Source of the DNA: Thermomonospora catenispora
GTDB lineage: Bacteria > Actinomycetota > Actinomycetes > Streptosporangiales > Streptosporangiaceae
Direction of reading: 5' to 3'
NCBI RefSeq assembly: GCF_006363815.1
Contig: NZ_RRYT01000002.1
Coordinates: 297,757 to 361,160, forward strand
Length of the DNA stretch: 63,404 bases
The first letter of the stretch is position 1. Every line of letters starts with the position of its first letter. The notes beneath the pieces are model-generated. The model was not told the DNA's origin, ran no database searches, and saw only the letters and a program-made list of their open reading frames with translations. A program made the position numbers and the translations under genes. Shown in pieces: positions 2,822 through 42,677 of the stretch.

Positions 2822-3859
2822 CTAGGGCCGGTAGGGGGCCAGCGCCCGCCAGCCCGGGTCGGGGGCCGAGGCCACCTTGGCCTTGCCCTCCGGCCAGCCG
2901 GCCGCCAGCTGGTCCAGGCGGGCCAGCACCCCGGAGTCGGGATCGGCGTACAGGTGGAACACCCGCAGCCCGTCACCGGTCTCCCGCACCGCCAGCACCG
3001 CGTCCGGCTCCAGGGCCTCCAGCTTGCGCTCGAACTCCCGCAGCGCCGAGGCGGACGGCTCCACCGGCAGCCGGTCGGGGTTGCTGTGCGCGTACGGCAC
3101 CGACACCGCCACGTGCAGGTCGCACAGCGGATGGTCCTGCCGGTGCAGCGGGAAGCGGGCCCCCAGCCGGGCCGGGTGCCCGCGCGGGGTGCGGCCCTCG
3201 CCCGACAGCCAGGTCGGCTCCCGGAACGGCTCGGACACCTGCGACACCACCGCCGGCAGCATGGTCGGCGGCAGCGAGTCCATCGGCTCCTCGGCGGCGA
3301 TGGCGACGTCGCCGACCCAGCGGGCCACGTCGTCCTCGCCCAGCGCCCAGATCAGCACGTGCTCGGCGACCTGGTCGCGGACGTCCTCGGCCACGAACAG
3401 GAAATCCGGGTGGTAGACGACGACGTGGATGCGCGCCCGCCCGTGGTCCACCCGCATGCCCAGCCGCACGTACTCCAGGTCGAACTCATGATCGCCCAGC
3501 ACCAGCCGCTGCCGCAGCATCTCCGGGTCGGGCTGACGCGCCGGGTACAGCGCCCAGCCGCCGGTGTCGGCGGGCGCGGCCCGCACCCAGCGCTCGGCCA
3601 GCCCGCGCAGCTCGGCGTCGCCGCCGCCGCTCACGGTCAGCGACGGGGCGCCGTCGTCCGGGCGTCCGATCTCCCACTGCAGGCCCTGATGGATCTTGCG
3701 CACCCGCAGCGACATCTCCTCGACCAGCTCGGTCGACAGCCCTTCGCCGAGCGCGGCCTCGATGTCCGCGCGCGTCTGGGCCCACCAGTCCCAGAACTCG
3801 GTGATCGCGGGGGCCGGGGTCGGATGCGATGTGTCGCGCGGTCGGCGGAAGAGTCCCAT
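2822..3859 (-). CDS. Hypothetical protein, 345 aa, between desulfurase and mnmA
   Basis: Not recognised. It encodes a soluble, acidic protein with no signal peptide or membrane segment, starting MGLFRRPRDTS. Aromatic and acidic motifs such as ITEFWDWWAQTRADIEAAL at the N-terminus and a C-terminal segment on outputs (AVRETGDGLRVFHLYAD) suggest a folded cytoplasmic protein. It lies opposite in direction to its neighbours, with the divergent start about 105 nt from mnmA. A DUF695-like identity is possible but I cannot support it from motifs. Confidence 0.7.
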   Translation of the reverse strand: MGLFRRPRDTSHPTPAPAITEFWDWWAQTRADIEAALGEGLSTELVEEMSLRVRKIHQGLQWEIGRPDDGAPSLTVSGGGDAELRGLAERWVRAAPADTGGWALYPARQPDPEMLRQRLVLGDHEFDLEYVRLGMRVDHGRARIHVVVYHPDFLFVAEDVRDQVAEHVLIWALGEDDVARWVGDVAIAAEEPMDSLPPTMLPAVVSQVSEPFREPTWLSGEGRTPRGHPARLGARFPLHRQDHPLCDLHVAVSVPYAHSNPDRLPVEPSASALREFERKLEALEPDAVLAVRETGDGLRVFHLYADPDSGVLARLDQLAAGWPEGKAKVASAPDPGWRALAPYRP

Positions 3860-3964
3860 AGAGGAGCAATCGTATTGCCCTTCGCGGACGCCGGTGGGGG
3901 CGAGGCGGAAGCCGCCGCCGGATCGGCGCGGGGGCGCCGCGGGGACGCGTAGCCTGGAGAGGTC

Positions 3965-5041
3965 ATGACTTTGCGCGTACTCGCCGCCATGTCGGGCGGC
4001 GTCGATTCAGCGGTGGCCGCCGCCCGCGCCGTCGAGGCGGGCCACGAGGTGACCGGCGTCCACATGGCCCTGTCCAGCAACCCCAAGTCCTACCGGACGG
4101 GGGCGCGGGGCTGTTGCACCCTGGAGGACTCCCGGGACGCCCGCCGCGCCGCCGACGTGATCGGCATCCCCTTCTACGTGTGGGATCTGGCCGAGCGGTT
4201 CGACCGTGACGTGGTGCAGGACTTCGTCAGCGAGTACGCCGCCGGCCGGACCCCCAACCCCTGCCTGCGCTGCAACGAGAAGATCAAGTTCGCCGCGCTG
4301 CTGGACAGGGCGCTGGCGCTGGGCTTCGACGCGGTCTGCACCGGCCACTACGCCCGGCTGGAGAACGGCGTGCTGCGACGCGGGGTGGACGAGGCCAAGG
4401 ACCAGTCCTACGTGCTGGCCGTGTGCACCCCCGAGCAGCTGGCGCACGCGATGTTCCCGCTGGGCGGCTCCACCAAGGCCGAGATCCGCCGCGAGGCCGA
4501 GCGGCGCGGGCTGCGGGTCGCCGACAAGCCCGACAGCCACGACATCTGCTTCATCGCCGACGGCGACACCCGCGCGTTCCTGACCGAGCGGCTCGGCCCC
4601 GCGCCCGGCCCGATCGTGGACGTCTCCGGCGAGGTCGTCGGCGAGCACCAGGGCGCCTACGCCTACACCGTCGGCCAGCGCCGCGGCCTGCGCATCGGCC
4701 GGCCCGCCCCGGACGGCAGGCCCCGCTACGTGCTGGACGTCTCCCCGGCGACCAACACCGTGACGGTGGGGCCGCGCGAGGCCCTGGACGTGCACGAGAT
4801 CGTGGGGGAGCGGCCGGTGTGGCTGTCCCCCCGCCCCGACGGCCCGCTGGAGTGCCGGGTCCAGCTGCGCGCGCACGGCGAGGTGTACGACTGCACCGTC
4901 GAGACGGACGACGACCGGTTGCGGATCCGCCTGCGCTCCCCGGCGCGAGGGGTCGCCAGGGGGCAGGCCGCCGTCCTGTACGACGGGGACCGGGTGCTGG
5001 GGTCGGCGACCATCGCGGAGACCTCGCGGGTGCAGCGGTGA
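3965..5041 (+). CDS. mnmA: tRNA-specific 2-thiouridylase MnmA
   Basis: A 358-residue enzyme that thiolates U34 of Lys, Glu and Gln tRNAs, using ATP and sulfur relayed from cysteine desulfurase. The PP-loop SGGVDSAV is at residues 10-17. The catalytic cysteine pair is C103 in [12 protein letters not shown] and C195 in HDICFI. The length is normal for the family. It lies downstream of the desulfurase gene, and two of its expected substrates, tRNA-Gln and tRNA-Glu, are encoded later in this window. Confidence 0.95.
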
Positions 5042-5066: not shown

Positions 5067-5891
5067 ATGGACTTCGGAGTCTCGACCTTCATCACCGACG
5101 AGGGCATCGGTCCGGCCGAGCTCGGCAGGGCGCTGGAGGAGCGCGGGTTCGCCGCGCTGTTCGTGGCCGAGCACACCCACATCCCGGTGCGCCGCGAGTC
5201 GCCCTGGCCGGGCGGCGGCGAGCTGCCGCGGGTGTACTACCGCACGTTCGACCCGTTCGTGGCGCTGACCGCGGCGGCCGTGGCCACCGAACGGCTGCAG
5301 GTCGGCACCGGCATCGCCCTGGTGATCCAGCGCGACCCGATCATCCTGGCCAAGGAGGTCGCCTCGCTGGACCGGGTGTCGAACGGCCGCGCGATCCTCG
5401 GCGTCGGGGCGGGCTGGAACCGCGAGGAGATGCGCAACCACGGCACCGATCCGCGCACCCGGATGCGGCTGATGCGCGAGCGGGTGCTGGCGGTCAAAGA
5501 GCTGTGGACCAAGGACGAGGCCTCCTTCCACGGCGAGTTCGTGAACTTCGACCCGGTGTTCAGCTGGCCCAAGCCGGTGCAGGACCCGCACCCGCCGGTG
5601 CTGGTGGGCGGCTCGGGCCCGACCACGTTCGACCGGGTGATCGACTTCGGCGACGGGTGGATGCCCATCTACGGGCGCGACACCGAGGACCTGGCCGCCA
5701 AGATCGACGAGCTGCGCCAGCGGGCGGGGCGCCGGGTGCCGGTGACGATGTTCGGCACGCCGCCCAAGCCCGAGGCGATCGACGAATGCCGGAAGGCCGG
5801 GGTGGACCGGGTGCTGTTCGGGCTGCCCACCGAGCCCGCCGACGCCACGCGGCGCAGGCTGGACGAGATGGCGGCGTTGATCGGCTCCTAG
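5067..5891 (+). CDS. LLM class F420-dependent oxidoreductase
   Basis: A 274-residue luciferase-like TIM-barrel protein. The N-terminus (ALEERGFAALFVAEHTHIP) and the segment GTGIALVIQRDPIILAKEVASLD are typical of actinobacterial F420-binding members, with GVGAGWNREEM and PPVLVGGSGP further on. Its substrate cannot be assigned. It follows mnmA by 25 nt and is probably co-transcribed with mnmA and the MetE-like gene 11 nt downstream. Confidence 0.88.
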   Translation: MDFGVSTFITDEGIGPAELGRALEERGFAALFVAEHTHIPVRRESPWPGGGELPRVYYRTFDPFVALTAAAVATERLQVGTGIALVIQRDPIILAKEVASLDRVSNGRAILGVGAGWNREEMRNHGTDPRTRMRLMRERVLAVKELWTKDEASFHGEFVNFDPVFSWPKPVQDPHPPVLVGGSGPTTFDRVIDFGDGWMPIYGRDTEDLAAKIDELRQRAGRRVPVTMFGTPPKPEAIDECRKAGVDRVLFGLPTEPADATRRRLDEMAALIGS

Positions 5892-39508: not shown

Positions 39509-39697
39509 TCAGCCCTCGGCGTTCTTGGGCCTGGGGTCGGCGCTCTGCACGACCTCGAACGTCCACAGCTCCGAGGCGCTCGCCGCCGGGCCGCCGCGGC
39601 CGTGCCCGTGGCCCTCGCCGTCCTGGGCGGCGTGGGAGTGTCCGCGCTGGAAGTCCTGGCTCTGCAGCCACCGCTGGAAGTCCTCTTCGGATCTCCA
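39509..39697 (-). pseudogene. ABM-family monooxygenase gene, 3' fragment
   Basis: Reads WRSEEDFQRWLQSQDF from codon 57 of the original gene, then a His/Gly-rich stretch and the final beta-strand SELWTFEVVQSADP to the stop at 39509. It lacks a start: upstream in frame lies insert DNA with a stop. The fragment continues, in frame, the 5' fragment at 42507-42677, and the two together make a 118-residue antibiotic-biosynthesis-monooxygenase-like protein. It should not be expressed in the present arrangement. Confidence 0.9.
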
Positions 39698-39707
39698 GAG
39701 CAGTGAG
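39685..39707. other. Left junction (att-like) of the insert
   Basis: Host sequence CTTCGGATCT, then core CCA (39695-39697), then insert GAGCAGTGAG. The host side belongs to codons 57-61 of the split gene. Confidence 0.7.
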
Positions 39708-39752
39708 GCTAGATGAAGCTAGCCGAGCTGCGAGGCGGAGGAGGGCTTCGCA

Positions 39753-39881
39753 GTGGGGCAACCGGCAACTCAGACGGAGATAGACGCTTGGGTGAAGAAG
39801 TGGTCGGCTCACATCCCCGAACGTGACGCCGAGTGGGTAGCGGAGCTGGAGAGGATCGTTCGGCTACCTGAGGACGACTGA
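39753..39881 (+). CDS. Small protein of the insert, 42 aa
   Basis: Not recognised. It reads MGQPATQTEIDAWVKKW and ends ELERIVRLPEDD, a charged, Trp-containing helical peptide without membrane segment. GGAGGAGGG lies about 7 nt before the GTG start and a strong GC hairpin follows the stop, so it looks like a complete small transcription unit. It begins 56 bp inside the left end of the insert, where integrase-linked small genes such as excisionases often lie, but it has no visible DNA-binding motif. Confidence 0.6.
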   Translation: MGQPATQTEIDAWVKKWSAHIPERDAEWVAELERIVRLPEDD

Positions 39882-39893
39882 CCACCAAGGCAA

Positions 39894-39915
39894 GGCCCCC
39901 GCTCCGGCGGGGGCC
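39894..39915 (+). terminator. Hairpin after the 42-aa gene
   Basis: GGCCCCCGC (39894-39902) pairs with GCGGGGGCC (39907-39915). A run of T residues occurs further on at about 39932-39938. Confidence 0.65.
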
Positions 39916-39979
39916 TCGGTGTCTCCGGGGACTTTTTTCTTTCGTCGGCCTGGGTGTCGTCTCCAAGCCCGAGCATGCT

Positions 39980-40012
39980 GGAGGCCCCCACCGGGGGGCG
40001 ATGGGGGCCTCC
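39980..40012 (-). terminator. Hairpin after the insert minus-strand unit
   Basis: GGAGGCCCCCA (39980-39990) pairs with TGGGGGCCTCC (40002-40012) across 11 nt, 29 nt beyond the stop of the small membrane-protein gene. Confidence 0.55.
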
Positions 40013-40041
40013 TCGGCGTACCCCTGACAGGCGCCTAGTAC

Positions 40042-40317
40042 CTAGTAGCGGAAGCGGGAGGCGGGTCCTCTGTCCACCCGGTTCCGACTCAACCCACCTC
40101 CCACTGGGGCCCCTCGACCAGGCGCGTACCCTTGGTGACCACCTCCCTTCTGCGCGCGGTGTCTCGCCGGTCTCCGGCGCCGGGGAGTCCCCTCCTTAGC
40201 TCTCCGGCGTATCCATCGGAAGGCCAGCGGGCCTAGATAGGCGAAGAGCGCTCCCCAAGCGGCACCGACCACTAGGGAGGCAAGAGTCACGGCAAGCAGA
40301 TCAGACTGGTAACCCAT
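40042..40317 (-). CDS. Small membrane protein of the insert, 91 aa
   Basis: Unknown function. One or two hydrophobic helices (residues about 4-30, SDLLAVTLASLVVGAAWGAL) are followed by a strongly basic tail of about 55 residues (RRRRPARHRAQKGG). The start ATG overlaps the HATPase stop (TGATG), so the two are translationally coupled. The pairing with an anti-sigma-like kinase suggests a membrane partner for it; this is inference. Confidence 0.65.
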   Translation of the reverse strand: MGYQSDLLAVTLASLVVGAAWGALFAYLGPLAFRWIRRRAKEGTPRRRRPARHRAQKGGGHQGYAPGRGAPVGGGLSRNRVDRGPASRFRY

Positions 40318-40772
40318 CACAGCACCGTCCAGACCGTCTTTCCGCCCTCCGGCCTGGTCTCGTAGCCCATATCCCGGGCAATTTGGGACACAATCATGAG
40401 CCCACGGCCCGATTCCGCCATCGGGATGGCCTTCCGCACCCACGGGATGGCCGGAGAGCGGTCTGTGACCTCGATTCGGAGCCTTTGCTCGCCTGGACCC
40501 GCCGTTTCAGAGGTCACCCGGAAGATGACCATCTCGTTTGGGAAGTAGATCGACTGTTCCCTCACGGCGTTGGTGACCAGTTCAGAGGTCACGAGGACGG
40601 CCTCGTAGGCCAGATCCCCCATCCCCAGCCGTCGAGCCCGGTCTTCGGCGTAGGTGCGGGCTCTACCGACCTCCGAGGGGTCGGTGGTCAGGAACAGATA
40701 TTCGTTGTTCACGCCGGTGGGGTCGGGATCGAGTCTTACGGCGGTGTCTGTGCAGGCTACTGGCTGATTCAT
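40317..40772 (-). CDS. RsbW-like ATP-binding regulatory protein
   Basis: A 151-residue protein with a histidine-kinase-like ATPase fold. The N-box is LVTSELVTNAVREQS, G1 is EVTDRSPAI and G2 is SGRGLMIVSQIA. Proteins of this short type act as anti-sigma or anti-sigma-antagonist kinases and occur beside XRE/DUF397 pairs in the whiJ and abaA loci of Streptomyces. The ATG at 40772 has GGAG 7 nt upstream. Divergent from the XRE gene across an operator-rich gap. Confidence 0.85.
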   Translation of the reverse strand: MNQPVACTDTAVRLDPDPTGVNNEYLFLTTDPSEVGRARTYAEDRARRLGMGDLAYEAVLVTSELVTNAVREQSIYFPNEMVIFRVTSETAGPGEQRLRIEVTDRSPAIPWVRKAIPMAESGRGLMIVSQIARDMGYETRPEGGKTVWTVL

Positions 40773-40787
40773 CGGCGGCTCCAGATC

Positions 40788-40799
40788 GGGTCTAGACCC
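40788..40799. promoter_or_regulatory. GGGTCTAGACCC palindrome before the HATPase gene
   Basis: A perfect 12-bp palindrome 16-27 nt upstream of the HATPase start, close to where its Shine-Dalgarno or transcript start would be. It may be an operator. Confidence 0.4.
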
Positions 40800-40827
40800 A
40801 TCTTGAACAGAAATGCACACTGGGTAT

Positions 40828-40934
40828 CGACAACCTCACTCCTGCGACGGAGCAGGGTCGGCAACCGGGACCTTGGTTGCCGCATAGGGGTCAGTGGTTG
40901 TCGGAGGTTGCGGAGCCGGCTTCGGAGGTTGCGG
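40828..40934. promoter_or_regulatory. Array of GGTTG-type boxes between divergent promoters
   Basis: Two inverted pairs are nested: CGACAACC (40828-40835) with GGTTGTCG (40896-40903), and CGGCAACC (40859-40866) with GGTTGCCG (40875-40882). Two GGTTGCGG copies follow at 40906-40913 and 40927-40934, the last touching the XRE start. This is a strong candidate operator for the XRE protein. Confidence 0.6.
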
Positions 40935-41722
40935 TGGTGGATCGGCCGAGATCCAAGAACTTGCAAGTCTTCGGCGACCAAGTGCGGGCATTTCGGCTGA
41001 ATGCCGGCTGGTCACAGGACCAGCTAGGTAACAAAATCCACGTATCCGGCACCTACATAGGGAAGGTCGAGAGGGGAGAGGTACGGTGCCAGCGCAAGCT
41101 GGCCCAGGCGCTCGACGCCGCCTTCGAACTTCCCAACGCCCTGACCCAGCTCTGGGACAACCTGAACCTGGCCTCCGCCTTCCCTGACTGGTTCGACTGG
41201 TACAGGGTGGAGTCCGGGGCCCGTAAGCTCCGCACCTACCAGTGCTTGGTGGTCTATGGCCTGTTGCAGACGGAGGACTACGCCAGGGCACTGCTCGGTG
41301 GGGACGAGGAGGCGGTGTCCGCACGCATGGAGCGTCAGAAGATCCTCACCAGGGAAGACCCTCCACCTCCTCAGGTAGAGGTGCTTCTCACCGAAGGTGT
41401 GCTCTACAACCCGGTGGGTGGGAAGGAGGTCATGCGCGGCCAGCTTGAGCGGCTGCTGGCCGCCATGGCAGACGGGGTTCGGATCAGGGTCGTGCCGGGA
41501 ATGACCCCACCCGAGGGCAGTGTGGGTGCGTTTGTGATCGCCCAGATGCCCAACCGGAGCGAGTTGGCCTACGTCGAGACCGCCCTTCGAGGGCTGAGTC
41601 TCAGCGAAGCTGAGGACGTAGACACCTTGATCACGGCCTATGATGCGATCGGAGCGCACGCCCTGCCCGTATCGATGACGAGGGATCTCGTCGTCAAGGT
41701 TCTGGAGGAGAGATGGACCTGA
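40934..41722 (+). CDS. XRE-family regulator with DUF5753 domain (WhiJ-like)
   Basis: A 262-residue protein. The helix-turn-helix lies at about residues 15-65 (FRLNAGWSQDQLGNKIHVSG, then IGKVERGEVRCQRKLAQALD). A DUF5753 domain fills the rest (YQCLVVYGLLQTEDYARALL, IRVVPGMTPPEGSVGAFVI). This is the WhiJ class, which controls differentiation or stress loci in Streptomyces together with DUF397 partners. GGAGG lies 5 nt before the GTG at 40934 (8 nt before the alternative GTG at 40937). It overlaps the DUF397 gene by 10 nt. Confidence 0.9.
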   Translation: MVDRPRSKNLQVFGDQVRAFRLNAGWSQDQLGNKIHVSGTYIGKVERGEVRCQRKLAQALDAAFELPNALTQLWDNLNLASAFPDWFDWYRVESGARKLRTYQCLVVYGLLQTEDYARALLGGDEEAVSARMERQKILTREDPPPPQVEVLLTEGVLYNPVGGKEVMRGQLERLLAAMADGVRIRVVPGMTPPEGSVGAFVIAQMPNRSELAYVETALRGLSLSEAEDVDTLITAYDAIGAHALPVSMTRDLVVKVLEERWT

Positions 41723-41904
41723 AGAGCGCCGTCTGGCGCAAGTCCAGCCACAGTGGTGGCAACGGTGGCGACTGCGTGGAGCTGGCCGACCTCACCCCTG
41801 AGGTCGGCATCCGTGACAGCAAGAACCCCGAGGCTGGTCACCTGACGGTGTCCCGCCAGGCTCTGGCCGGCCTCATCGGCCGGATCAAGGCCGACCAGGT
41901 CTGA
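41713..41904 (+). CDS. DUF397 protein (BldB-like)
   Basis: A 63-residue DUF397 protein. The conserved pattern is WRKSSHSGGNGGDCVELADL, then IRDSKNPEAGHLTVSRQALAGL near the end. DUF397 proteins are typically encoded directly after a WhiJ-type XRE gene, as here with a 10-nt overlap, and are thought to modulate it. A perfect hairpin with a T-rich tail follows. Confidence 0.92.
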   Translation: MDLKSAVWRKSSHSGGNGGDCVELADLTPEVGIRDSKNPEAGHLTVSRQALAGLIGRIKADQV

Positions 41905-41919
41905 CCGGCAACCTCCTGA

Positions 41920-41942
41920 GCCCTCCGGCCCAGCCGGAGGGC
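41920..41942 (+). terminator. Terminator after DUF397
   Basis: GCCCTCCGGC (41920-41929) pairs with GCCGGAGGGC (41933-41942) around CCA, followed by TTCTCTCTTG. Confidence 0.75.
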
Positions 41943-42004
41943 TTCTCTCTTGCCCGTGTACGAATGTACGGGAATGTTGAAAGTTCAACTCGATCTTGAA
42001 GAAG

Positions 42005-42034
42005 TTGAAACTTATATCTTTACGCTGGTGTTAT
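42005..42034 (+). promoter_or_regulatory. Promoter candidate of the 129-aa gene
   Basis: TTGAAA (42005-42010) and TGTTAT (42029-42034) are 18 nt apart in an AT-rich stretch. GTTGAA repeats precede it (including GTTGAA-AG-TTCAAC near 41977). Transcription would start a few bases before the GTG at 42045. Confidence 0.5.
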
Positions 42035-42044
42035 CCTGTTTCAG

Positions 42045-42434
42045 GTGTTACGCCCGTTTTCAGGCCGCACCATTGTGGCTATGGTTGGACCAGCTCACCC
42101 CCTTGATCCGGTTAGCGACCGGATAACGTACTACGCGAGTGACTACGGCTACCGTCTGGAGGGGCAGGCGTACGAGGACGGCTGGATCTTCCAGATGAAG
42201 CTTCCCCTCGGGCAGCCTCTCACCCCGGAAGGGATGCCCGACGACGTCACCCGGCTCATCCAGCAACTGAGCAGGGGCGTCTTCTACCACTGCGAGATCA
42301 CCAGGGGGACCTTCTACATAGCTCTATGGGTCCCCGGCCGGGTCTACAAGAAGTACATCGAGGGGGTAATGCCAGAGCCTGTGCGTCCAACCGGGCCGAT
42401 CCAGATCGTGCCGCCCCTGTCCTCGGAACCCTGA
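42045..42434 (+). CDS. Hypothetical protein of the insert, 129 aa
   Basis: Unrecognised. A soluble protein with a high content of aromatic residues (ITYYASDYGYRLEGQAYEDG, then WVPGRVYKKYIEGVMPEP). The middle reads as mixed helix/strand with no catalytic motif that I can name. The start is uncertain: GTG at 42045, or GTG 42075/ATG 42081 in the same frame. It ends before a strong hairpin at the right end of the insert and is presumably cargo. Confidence 0.65.
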   Translation: MLRPFSGRTIVAMVGPAHPLDPVSDRITYYASDYGYRLEGQAYEDGWIFQMKLPLGQPLTPEGMPDDVTRLIQQLSRGVFYHCEITRGTFYIALWVPGRVYKKYIEGVMPEPVRPTGPIQIVPPLSSEP

Positions 42435-42440
42435 CTCCTC

Positions 42441-42475
42441 AGAGCCCTCGAGACCACCCCTCTCTCGGGGGCTCT
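42441..42475. terminator. Hairpin near the right end of the insert
   Basis: AGAGCCCTCGAGA (42441-42453) pairs with TCTCGGGGGCTCT (42463-42475), one G-T pair, across 9 nt. It follows the 129-aa gene. Confidence 0.7.
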
Positions 42476-42496
42476 CCCCTGAGTAGTTGGTCCAAC

Positions 42497-42519
42497 CATC
42501 AGGCTGCCATCGGGTGTAC
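42497..42519. other. Right junction (att-like) of the insert
   Basis: Insert ATCAGGCTG, then core CCA (42507-42509), then host TCGGGTGTAC. The host side encodes codons 53-57 (VYTRW) of the split gene on the minus strand. Confidence 0.7.
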
Positions 42520-42677
42520 ACAAGGTAGCGGTCCGTGCCCTCCACGGGACGCAGCAGCTCGAAGTGCTCGAACCCTTCCGCGGACTCCACCAGGCCCGCC
42601 CGTCCGGCGAACCGGCGTTCCAGCTCGGCCCGCATCTCCTCGCTGACGGTCAGGACGTTGAACTTGACCACCGACAC
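42507..42677 (-). pseudogene. ABM-family monooxygenase gene, 5' fragment
   Basis: Starts at a GTG with AAGGGGGAG about 6 nt upstream and reads SVVKFNVLTVSEEMRAELE, then GFEHFELLRPVEG and YLVYTRW, the normal first half of a ferredoxin-like ABM domain. After codon 57 (W) the frame enters insert DNA and runs to a stop at 42324, giving a 117-residue chimera whose second half has no ABM character. The true C-terminal half is at 39509-39697. The fragment may still be transcribed antisense to the 129-aa gene. Confidence 0.9.

Follow-up and report, generated by a model that had tools for sequence, protein, structure and literature searches.

The interrupted ABM gene

The window considered here is a 63,404-bp stretch of DNA from the actinomycete Thermomonospora catenispora. 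On its minus strand, an ABM-domain gene is interrupted after codon 57 by a unit of 2,812 bp, which consists of 2,809 bp of insert and one copy of the codon TGG. The gene parts, their junctions and the insert are positioned as follows:

42507..42677, minus strand: 5' part of the ABM gene, codons 1-57 including the TGG core, with a GTG start and ending in VYTRW (Pfam ABM profile positions 3-57 of 78, E 2.7e-11)
39509..39697, minus strand: 3' part of the ABM gene, from the TGG core, stop included (Pfam ABM profile positions 57-76 of 78, E 0.0056)
42507..42509, minus strand (CCA on the plus strand): TGG copy where the 5' part meets the insert, from the junction comparison
39695..39697, minus strand (CCA on the plus strand): TGG copy where the 3' part meets the insert, from the junction comparison
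39698..42506, no strand: insert without its core copy, 2,809 bp, delimited by the junction comparison, its G+C content and the contiguity of the flanks in the same-genus genome G001

The two halves meet at position 57 of the Pfam ABM profile and are contiguous on it; the 3' part taken alone (39697-39512, starting with W) scores 17.3 bits, under the Pfam cut-off of 23.1. Joined by taking out the 2,812-bp unit, the halves form a frame of 118 codons with no inner stop. The identity between the two junctions is exactly TGG and extends by no further base. The in-frame split at a common TGG codon and the restored 118-codon frame, both described in an earlier note on this DNA, are thus confirmed by profile contiguity and by the junction comparison. 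At present, the 5' part reads through in frame into the insert (60 codons), and the 3' part lies inside a 69-codon stop-to-stop frame for which no ORF of at least 50 codons with an ATG, GTG or TTG start is listed. The insertion has probably led to loss of the ABM enzyme, since a search of the genome at E 0.001 yielded no second intact close homologue of the gene.

The ABM gene is uninterrupted in all four other same-genus genomes compared, a comparison with such relatives having been proposed in the earlier note. The joined protein is 77-90% identical to their homologues over residues 1/2-115 (4/4 genomes). No relatives with two separate genes were found and full-length homologues exist; the opposite of either had been set beforehand as an outcome speaking against a split. 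A comparison of the flanks over a longer stretch was made with one same-genus genome, G001, in which both flanks of the window align to meeting positions with an overlap of 8 (L070 7418-7425). Such an overlap would be expected from the doubled TGG together with a chance extension. Because the flanks meet in G001, the insertion was clean and no target base was lost.

In the family survey, an ABM match at 1e-8 was obtained in 243 of 297 genomes and none in 54, and codon 57 is spanned in every match among the matches listed. The window's own two halves fall under this cut and are hence absent from the matches. Of 92 weaker-match genomes chosen by eye, 80 were re-inspected, with 12 left out, and codon 57 lies within the best match of every one (80/80). 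No second insertion at codon 57 was found among the matches listed or in the 80 re-inspected genomes, and within that same set the window's genome is the only one seen with the ABM gene split there. A cluster of AT-ending codons around codon 57 was dropped from consideration (Fisher P 0.002 for the stretch, scan P 0.07).

Composition and gene content of the insert

The G+C content of the insert is 63.1%, against at least 68.4% in 1,099 overlapping stretches of the same size outside it. The following features were placed within the insert:

40877..41722, plus strand: WhiJ-like XRE/DUF5753 regulator (PF13560 and PF19054 above cut-off), with a putative start; relatives align with it from about residue 26 onwards
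41713..41904, plus strand: BldB-like DUF397 protein (PF04149, E 1.2e-19)
40317..40820, minus strand: AbaA-like HATPase (HATPase_c_2) protein (PF13581, E 4.2e-10), divergent from the regulator, with a putative start
42045..42434, plus strand: orphan ORF of 117-129 codons, starting at 42045 or 42081
40042..40317, minus strand: possible small ORF that overlaps the HATPase gene at its end, called from sequence only and matching no family
39753..39881, plus strand: possible 42-codon ORF just within the insert end, from the stop-to-stop list, matching no family
39908..39930, plus strand: terminator-like hairpin with a T run, downstream of the possible 42-codon ORF

PF13560, PF19054, PF04149 and PF13581 all score above their own cut-offs, so that an XRE regulator, its DUF397 partner and a HATPase neighbour are present. 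Scanning of the insert ORFs, and of some of the listed six-frame fragments, against Pfam, PHROGs, NCBIfam and PADLOC brought up no recognisable integrase, transposase or relaxase. The lower G+C, the compact regulatory cargo and the absence of a recognised recombinase gene all agree with what the earlier note had described. A group I or group II intron was considered and rejected: four Rfam matches at E up to 5 were all under their gathering scores and none was to an intron model, and the presence of insert genes on both strands also contradicts such a reading.

The ORFs near the insert ends match no family. The ORF at 39753-39881 has a protein-like composition and no convincing relatives. Terminator-like sites in the region number 3, against 1.4 (sd 1.4) in shuffles. 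The 117-codon ORF is bracketed by inverted 15-mers at 42081-42095 and 42485-42499 that agree in 14 of 15 positions; an equally good pair arose in 71 of 300 shuffles, and the pair was rejected as a signal. An AlphaFold2 model of this ORF built without an alignment reached a pLDDT of 50 and a pTM of 0.45, and was set aside with no fold search made from it.

A search of 297 family genomes with the 117-codon ORF returned the ORF itself and one match (G171), which was judged spurious because it falls within repeats in an overlapping set of ORFs. The search of 394 class genomes returned the ORF itself only, and no relative was found in the phages, genome contigs and viral contigs searched. By its left end (left 129 bases), the insert has no second copy in the same genome. 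The earlier note had suggested looking for the same block at other loci or for a larger version with a serine integrase; neither these nor a related block were found among the phages, plasmids, viral contigs and genomes searched. Matches of the insert DNA to plasmids occurred in 2 of 72,556 records, with coverages of 4% and 2%.

Relatives of the regulator set

Among the matches listed, the nearest relatives reach no more than 54% identity across the length of the regulator, with 56% in one partial match of 167 residues; up to 8 candidates were scored per genome. The genome-contig scan gave seven loci, the best at 53%. Distant relatives with 27-31% identity are found in 14 of 50,697 phage records, 13 of these being Streptomyces phages, and no relative was found in the viral contigs. 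In the window's own genome the regulator has 17 matches at 1e-10, itself counted. DUF397 genes adjoin the regulator at the 13 relative loci examined, and a HATPase gene was matched in 7 of these 13 (tblastn, 0.01). The sets of the relatives lie at varied chromosomal places. The one neighbour gene scanned at these loci, in L110, encodes a protein of the HTH_38/MarR type. Near another regulator relative, in L074 (G002), ORFs at about 3766-4170 and 5295-5573 consist of repeated 'PSPRARGA' and 'PACAGS' motifs, which we take to resemble a CRISPR array read as protein.

The insert resembles the WhiJ-BldB-AbaA (XRE-DUF397-HATPase) sets in that XRE/DUF5753, DUF397 and divergent HATPase genes stand side by side. 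It differs from them in being lodged within an insert that splits a gene and has orphan ORFs towards its ends, and in the distance of its regulator from the listed relatives given above. The same neighbourhood arrangement is reported for the whiJ, bldB and abaA paralogues of Streptomyces in passages of PMC10294661. XRE-DUF397 pairs are proposed as toxin-antitoxin systems, and one pair regulates antibiotic production, according to parts of PMC6262351 and PMC10364602. The cargo is likely to be the working part of the insert today: by analogy with Streptomyces, the divergent gene for the AbaA-like ATPase would be under the control of the WhiJ-like DNA-binding protein and the BldB-like DUF397 protein as its partner.

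Insert ends and candidate recombinases

Among simulated random insertions, 6.5% share at least three bases at the ends, so that the TGG core could be due to chance. An attP-like symmetry of the arms amounts to 12 of 27 positions at the better of two centres inside TGG; its P is about 0.08 on the element background and 0.19 on the window background, which is not significant. The inverted matches at the insert ends (10 of 25, P 0.11) are not significant either.

The genome, with a completeness of 99.98%, contains one detected serine recombinase. PF00239 and PF07508 have one match each, both on contig C109 and none in the insert. On contig C109 (G000), roughly the middle 8.6 kb of L008 constitutes an element situated inside an ABC-transporter ATPase gene, with 4-bp identity at the element ends. 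Besides this serine recombinase (PF00239, PF07508, zinc ribbon), the element carries the gene for a phage capsid (PF05065, 2.5e-58). The parts of the split gene match the ABC_tran profile at 1-25 (under cut-off) and 29-137, and the gene shows a weak DrrA-type resemblance, under cut-off. Since this serine-recombinase element lies inside a gene, such events do occur in the lineage. Compared with the arms of the insert, its attP arms agree in at best 10 of 24 positions, where shuffled sequence averages 10.6 (P 0.81); for its attB arms the figure is 13 of 24, with a mean of 11.0 under the null (P 0.13). The earlier note had proposed a search for a serine integrase elsewhere in the genome; one is indeed present, in another element, and it was rejected as a factor acting in trans on the insert because its att arms are unlike.

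PF00589 (tyrosine integrase) has 10 matches in the genome, 9 of them above cut-off, and none is tied to the ABM locus. The end repeats of tyrosine-recombinase IMEs are generally 8-60 bp long, as stated in a part of PMC5704250. A tyrosine-recombinase IME, and with it a tyrosine integrase as the agent, was rejected because the 3 bp shared by the insert ends are shorter than these usual repeats. Background on serine integrases is provided by sections of PMC10083194 and PMC12924846, whose main texts do not contain the word monooxygenase. In the literature searched, no paper was found linking a serine integrase, attB and the name of this target gene.

Origin of the insert

With middling confidence, the insert is regarded as an integrase-less remnant of a small site-specifically integrated element whose integrase gene has since been lost. 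The entry of such an element into the ABM gene would have taken place at the TGG core through site-specific recombination, for which an event of the large-serine-recombinase type appears the best fit; the integrase gene presumably disappeared later, and the block may now be immobile. The contiguous ABM halves, the uninterrupted gene in 4/4 relatives, the flanks that meet in G001, the 3-bp core and the low G+C support a remnant, as do the WhiJ/BldB/AbaA-type domains of the cargo and the presence of the C109 serine-recombinase element in the same genome. Against it stand the lack of an integrase or a recognisable trace of one, the frequency with which such a core arises by chance, the weak arm symmetry, the absence of recurrence among the matches listed and the 80 re-inspected genomes, and the absence of a related block in the collections searched.

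The insert is similar to the gene-splitting elements of large serine recombinases in its mid-gene position and the very short (3-bp) identity of its ends. Unlike them, it encodes no serine recombinase, its arm symmetry is not significant and no recurrence at the site was seen. A serine-integrase origin fits the short core and the mid-gene target, on thin evidence. The decayed serine-integrase element postulated in the earlier note stands insofar as a once-intact gene was precisely split by a low-G+C, recombinase-free block; a serine integrase is its candidate agent, a proposal weakened by the core and symmetry values above, by the absence of an integrase-bearing larger version or second copy in what was searched and by the location of the one serine recombinase detected in another element. 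Being an island within a gene without recognised integration or transfer genes, the insert is also comparable to a CIME or to a decayed ICE, IME or prophage remnant (CIMEs are defined in a passage of PMC5704250). It may keep attL and attR like a CIME, with TGG at both ends as putative sites (symmetry P about 0.08 / 0.19). It departs from a CIME in that no related complete element was found in the collections searched and no adjacent active element was seen.

The main alternative, a possible but rather doubtful one, is that non-homologous end joining built a DNA fragment with the regulator module into the ABM gene at a double-strand break, TGG being a coincidence or a short microhomology. The frequency of three or more shared bases in simulated insertions is compatible with this, as are the lack of a recognised recombinase in the insert, the non-significant inverted ends, the single occurrence at this site among the matches listed and the 80 re-inspected genomes, and the varied chromosomal places of the relatives' regulator sets. 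However, end joining often loses bases, and the comparison with G001 reveals no missing base at the target.

It is unlikely that the insert is a live satellite with functional attL and attR, moved by the integrase of a phage or integrative element in trans, so that the ABM gene is repaired on excision. The clean core, the compact size, the regulator cargo and the ABM frame that is open once the flanks are joined could be expected of such a satellite, and CIMEs, which have lost integration genes and kept attL and attR, are known from the part of PMC5704250 that concerns them. The sole serine recombinase detected, however, belongs to the C109 element with its unlike att arms, and the collections searched yielded no copy of the block. 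For mobilisation in trans and restoration of the gene on excision, as suggested in the earlier note, no positive support was obtained. Hardly to be expected is a minimal 2.8-kb satellite, made up of a WhiJ/BldB/AbaA-type developmental regulator set and a few orphan genes between two att ends, that would borrow an integrase from another element and turn the host enzyme gene off or restore it in step with development.

A non-autonomous transposon with a 3-bp target duplication (TGG) and a transposase acting in trans is very improbable: TGG does stand at both junctions and the ends do share 10 of 25 inverted matches, but this inverted similarity is not significant and the left 129 bases occur once in the genome. 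An assembly artefact joining unrelated stretches is barely credible, for although the draft genome has 109 contigs, the halves lie 2.8 kb apart on one 361-kb contig, on the same strand and in the right order.

Biological meaning

The foreign-looking insert is a tidy but fairly ordinary case, and the developmental regulator set in it is a common one. If it is the remnant of an integrated element, it adds one more actinomycete developmental regulator set lodged in a gene, and its position points to a possible attachment site in a gene that is widely conserved. A block mobilised in trans would instead be a satellite of very small size, coupling a developmental regulator to a gene switch that can be reversed.
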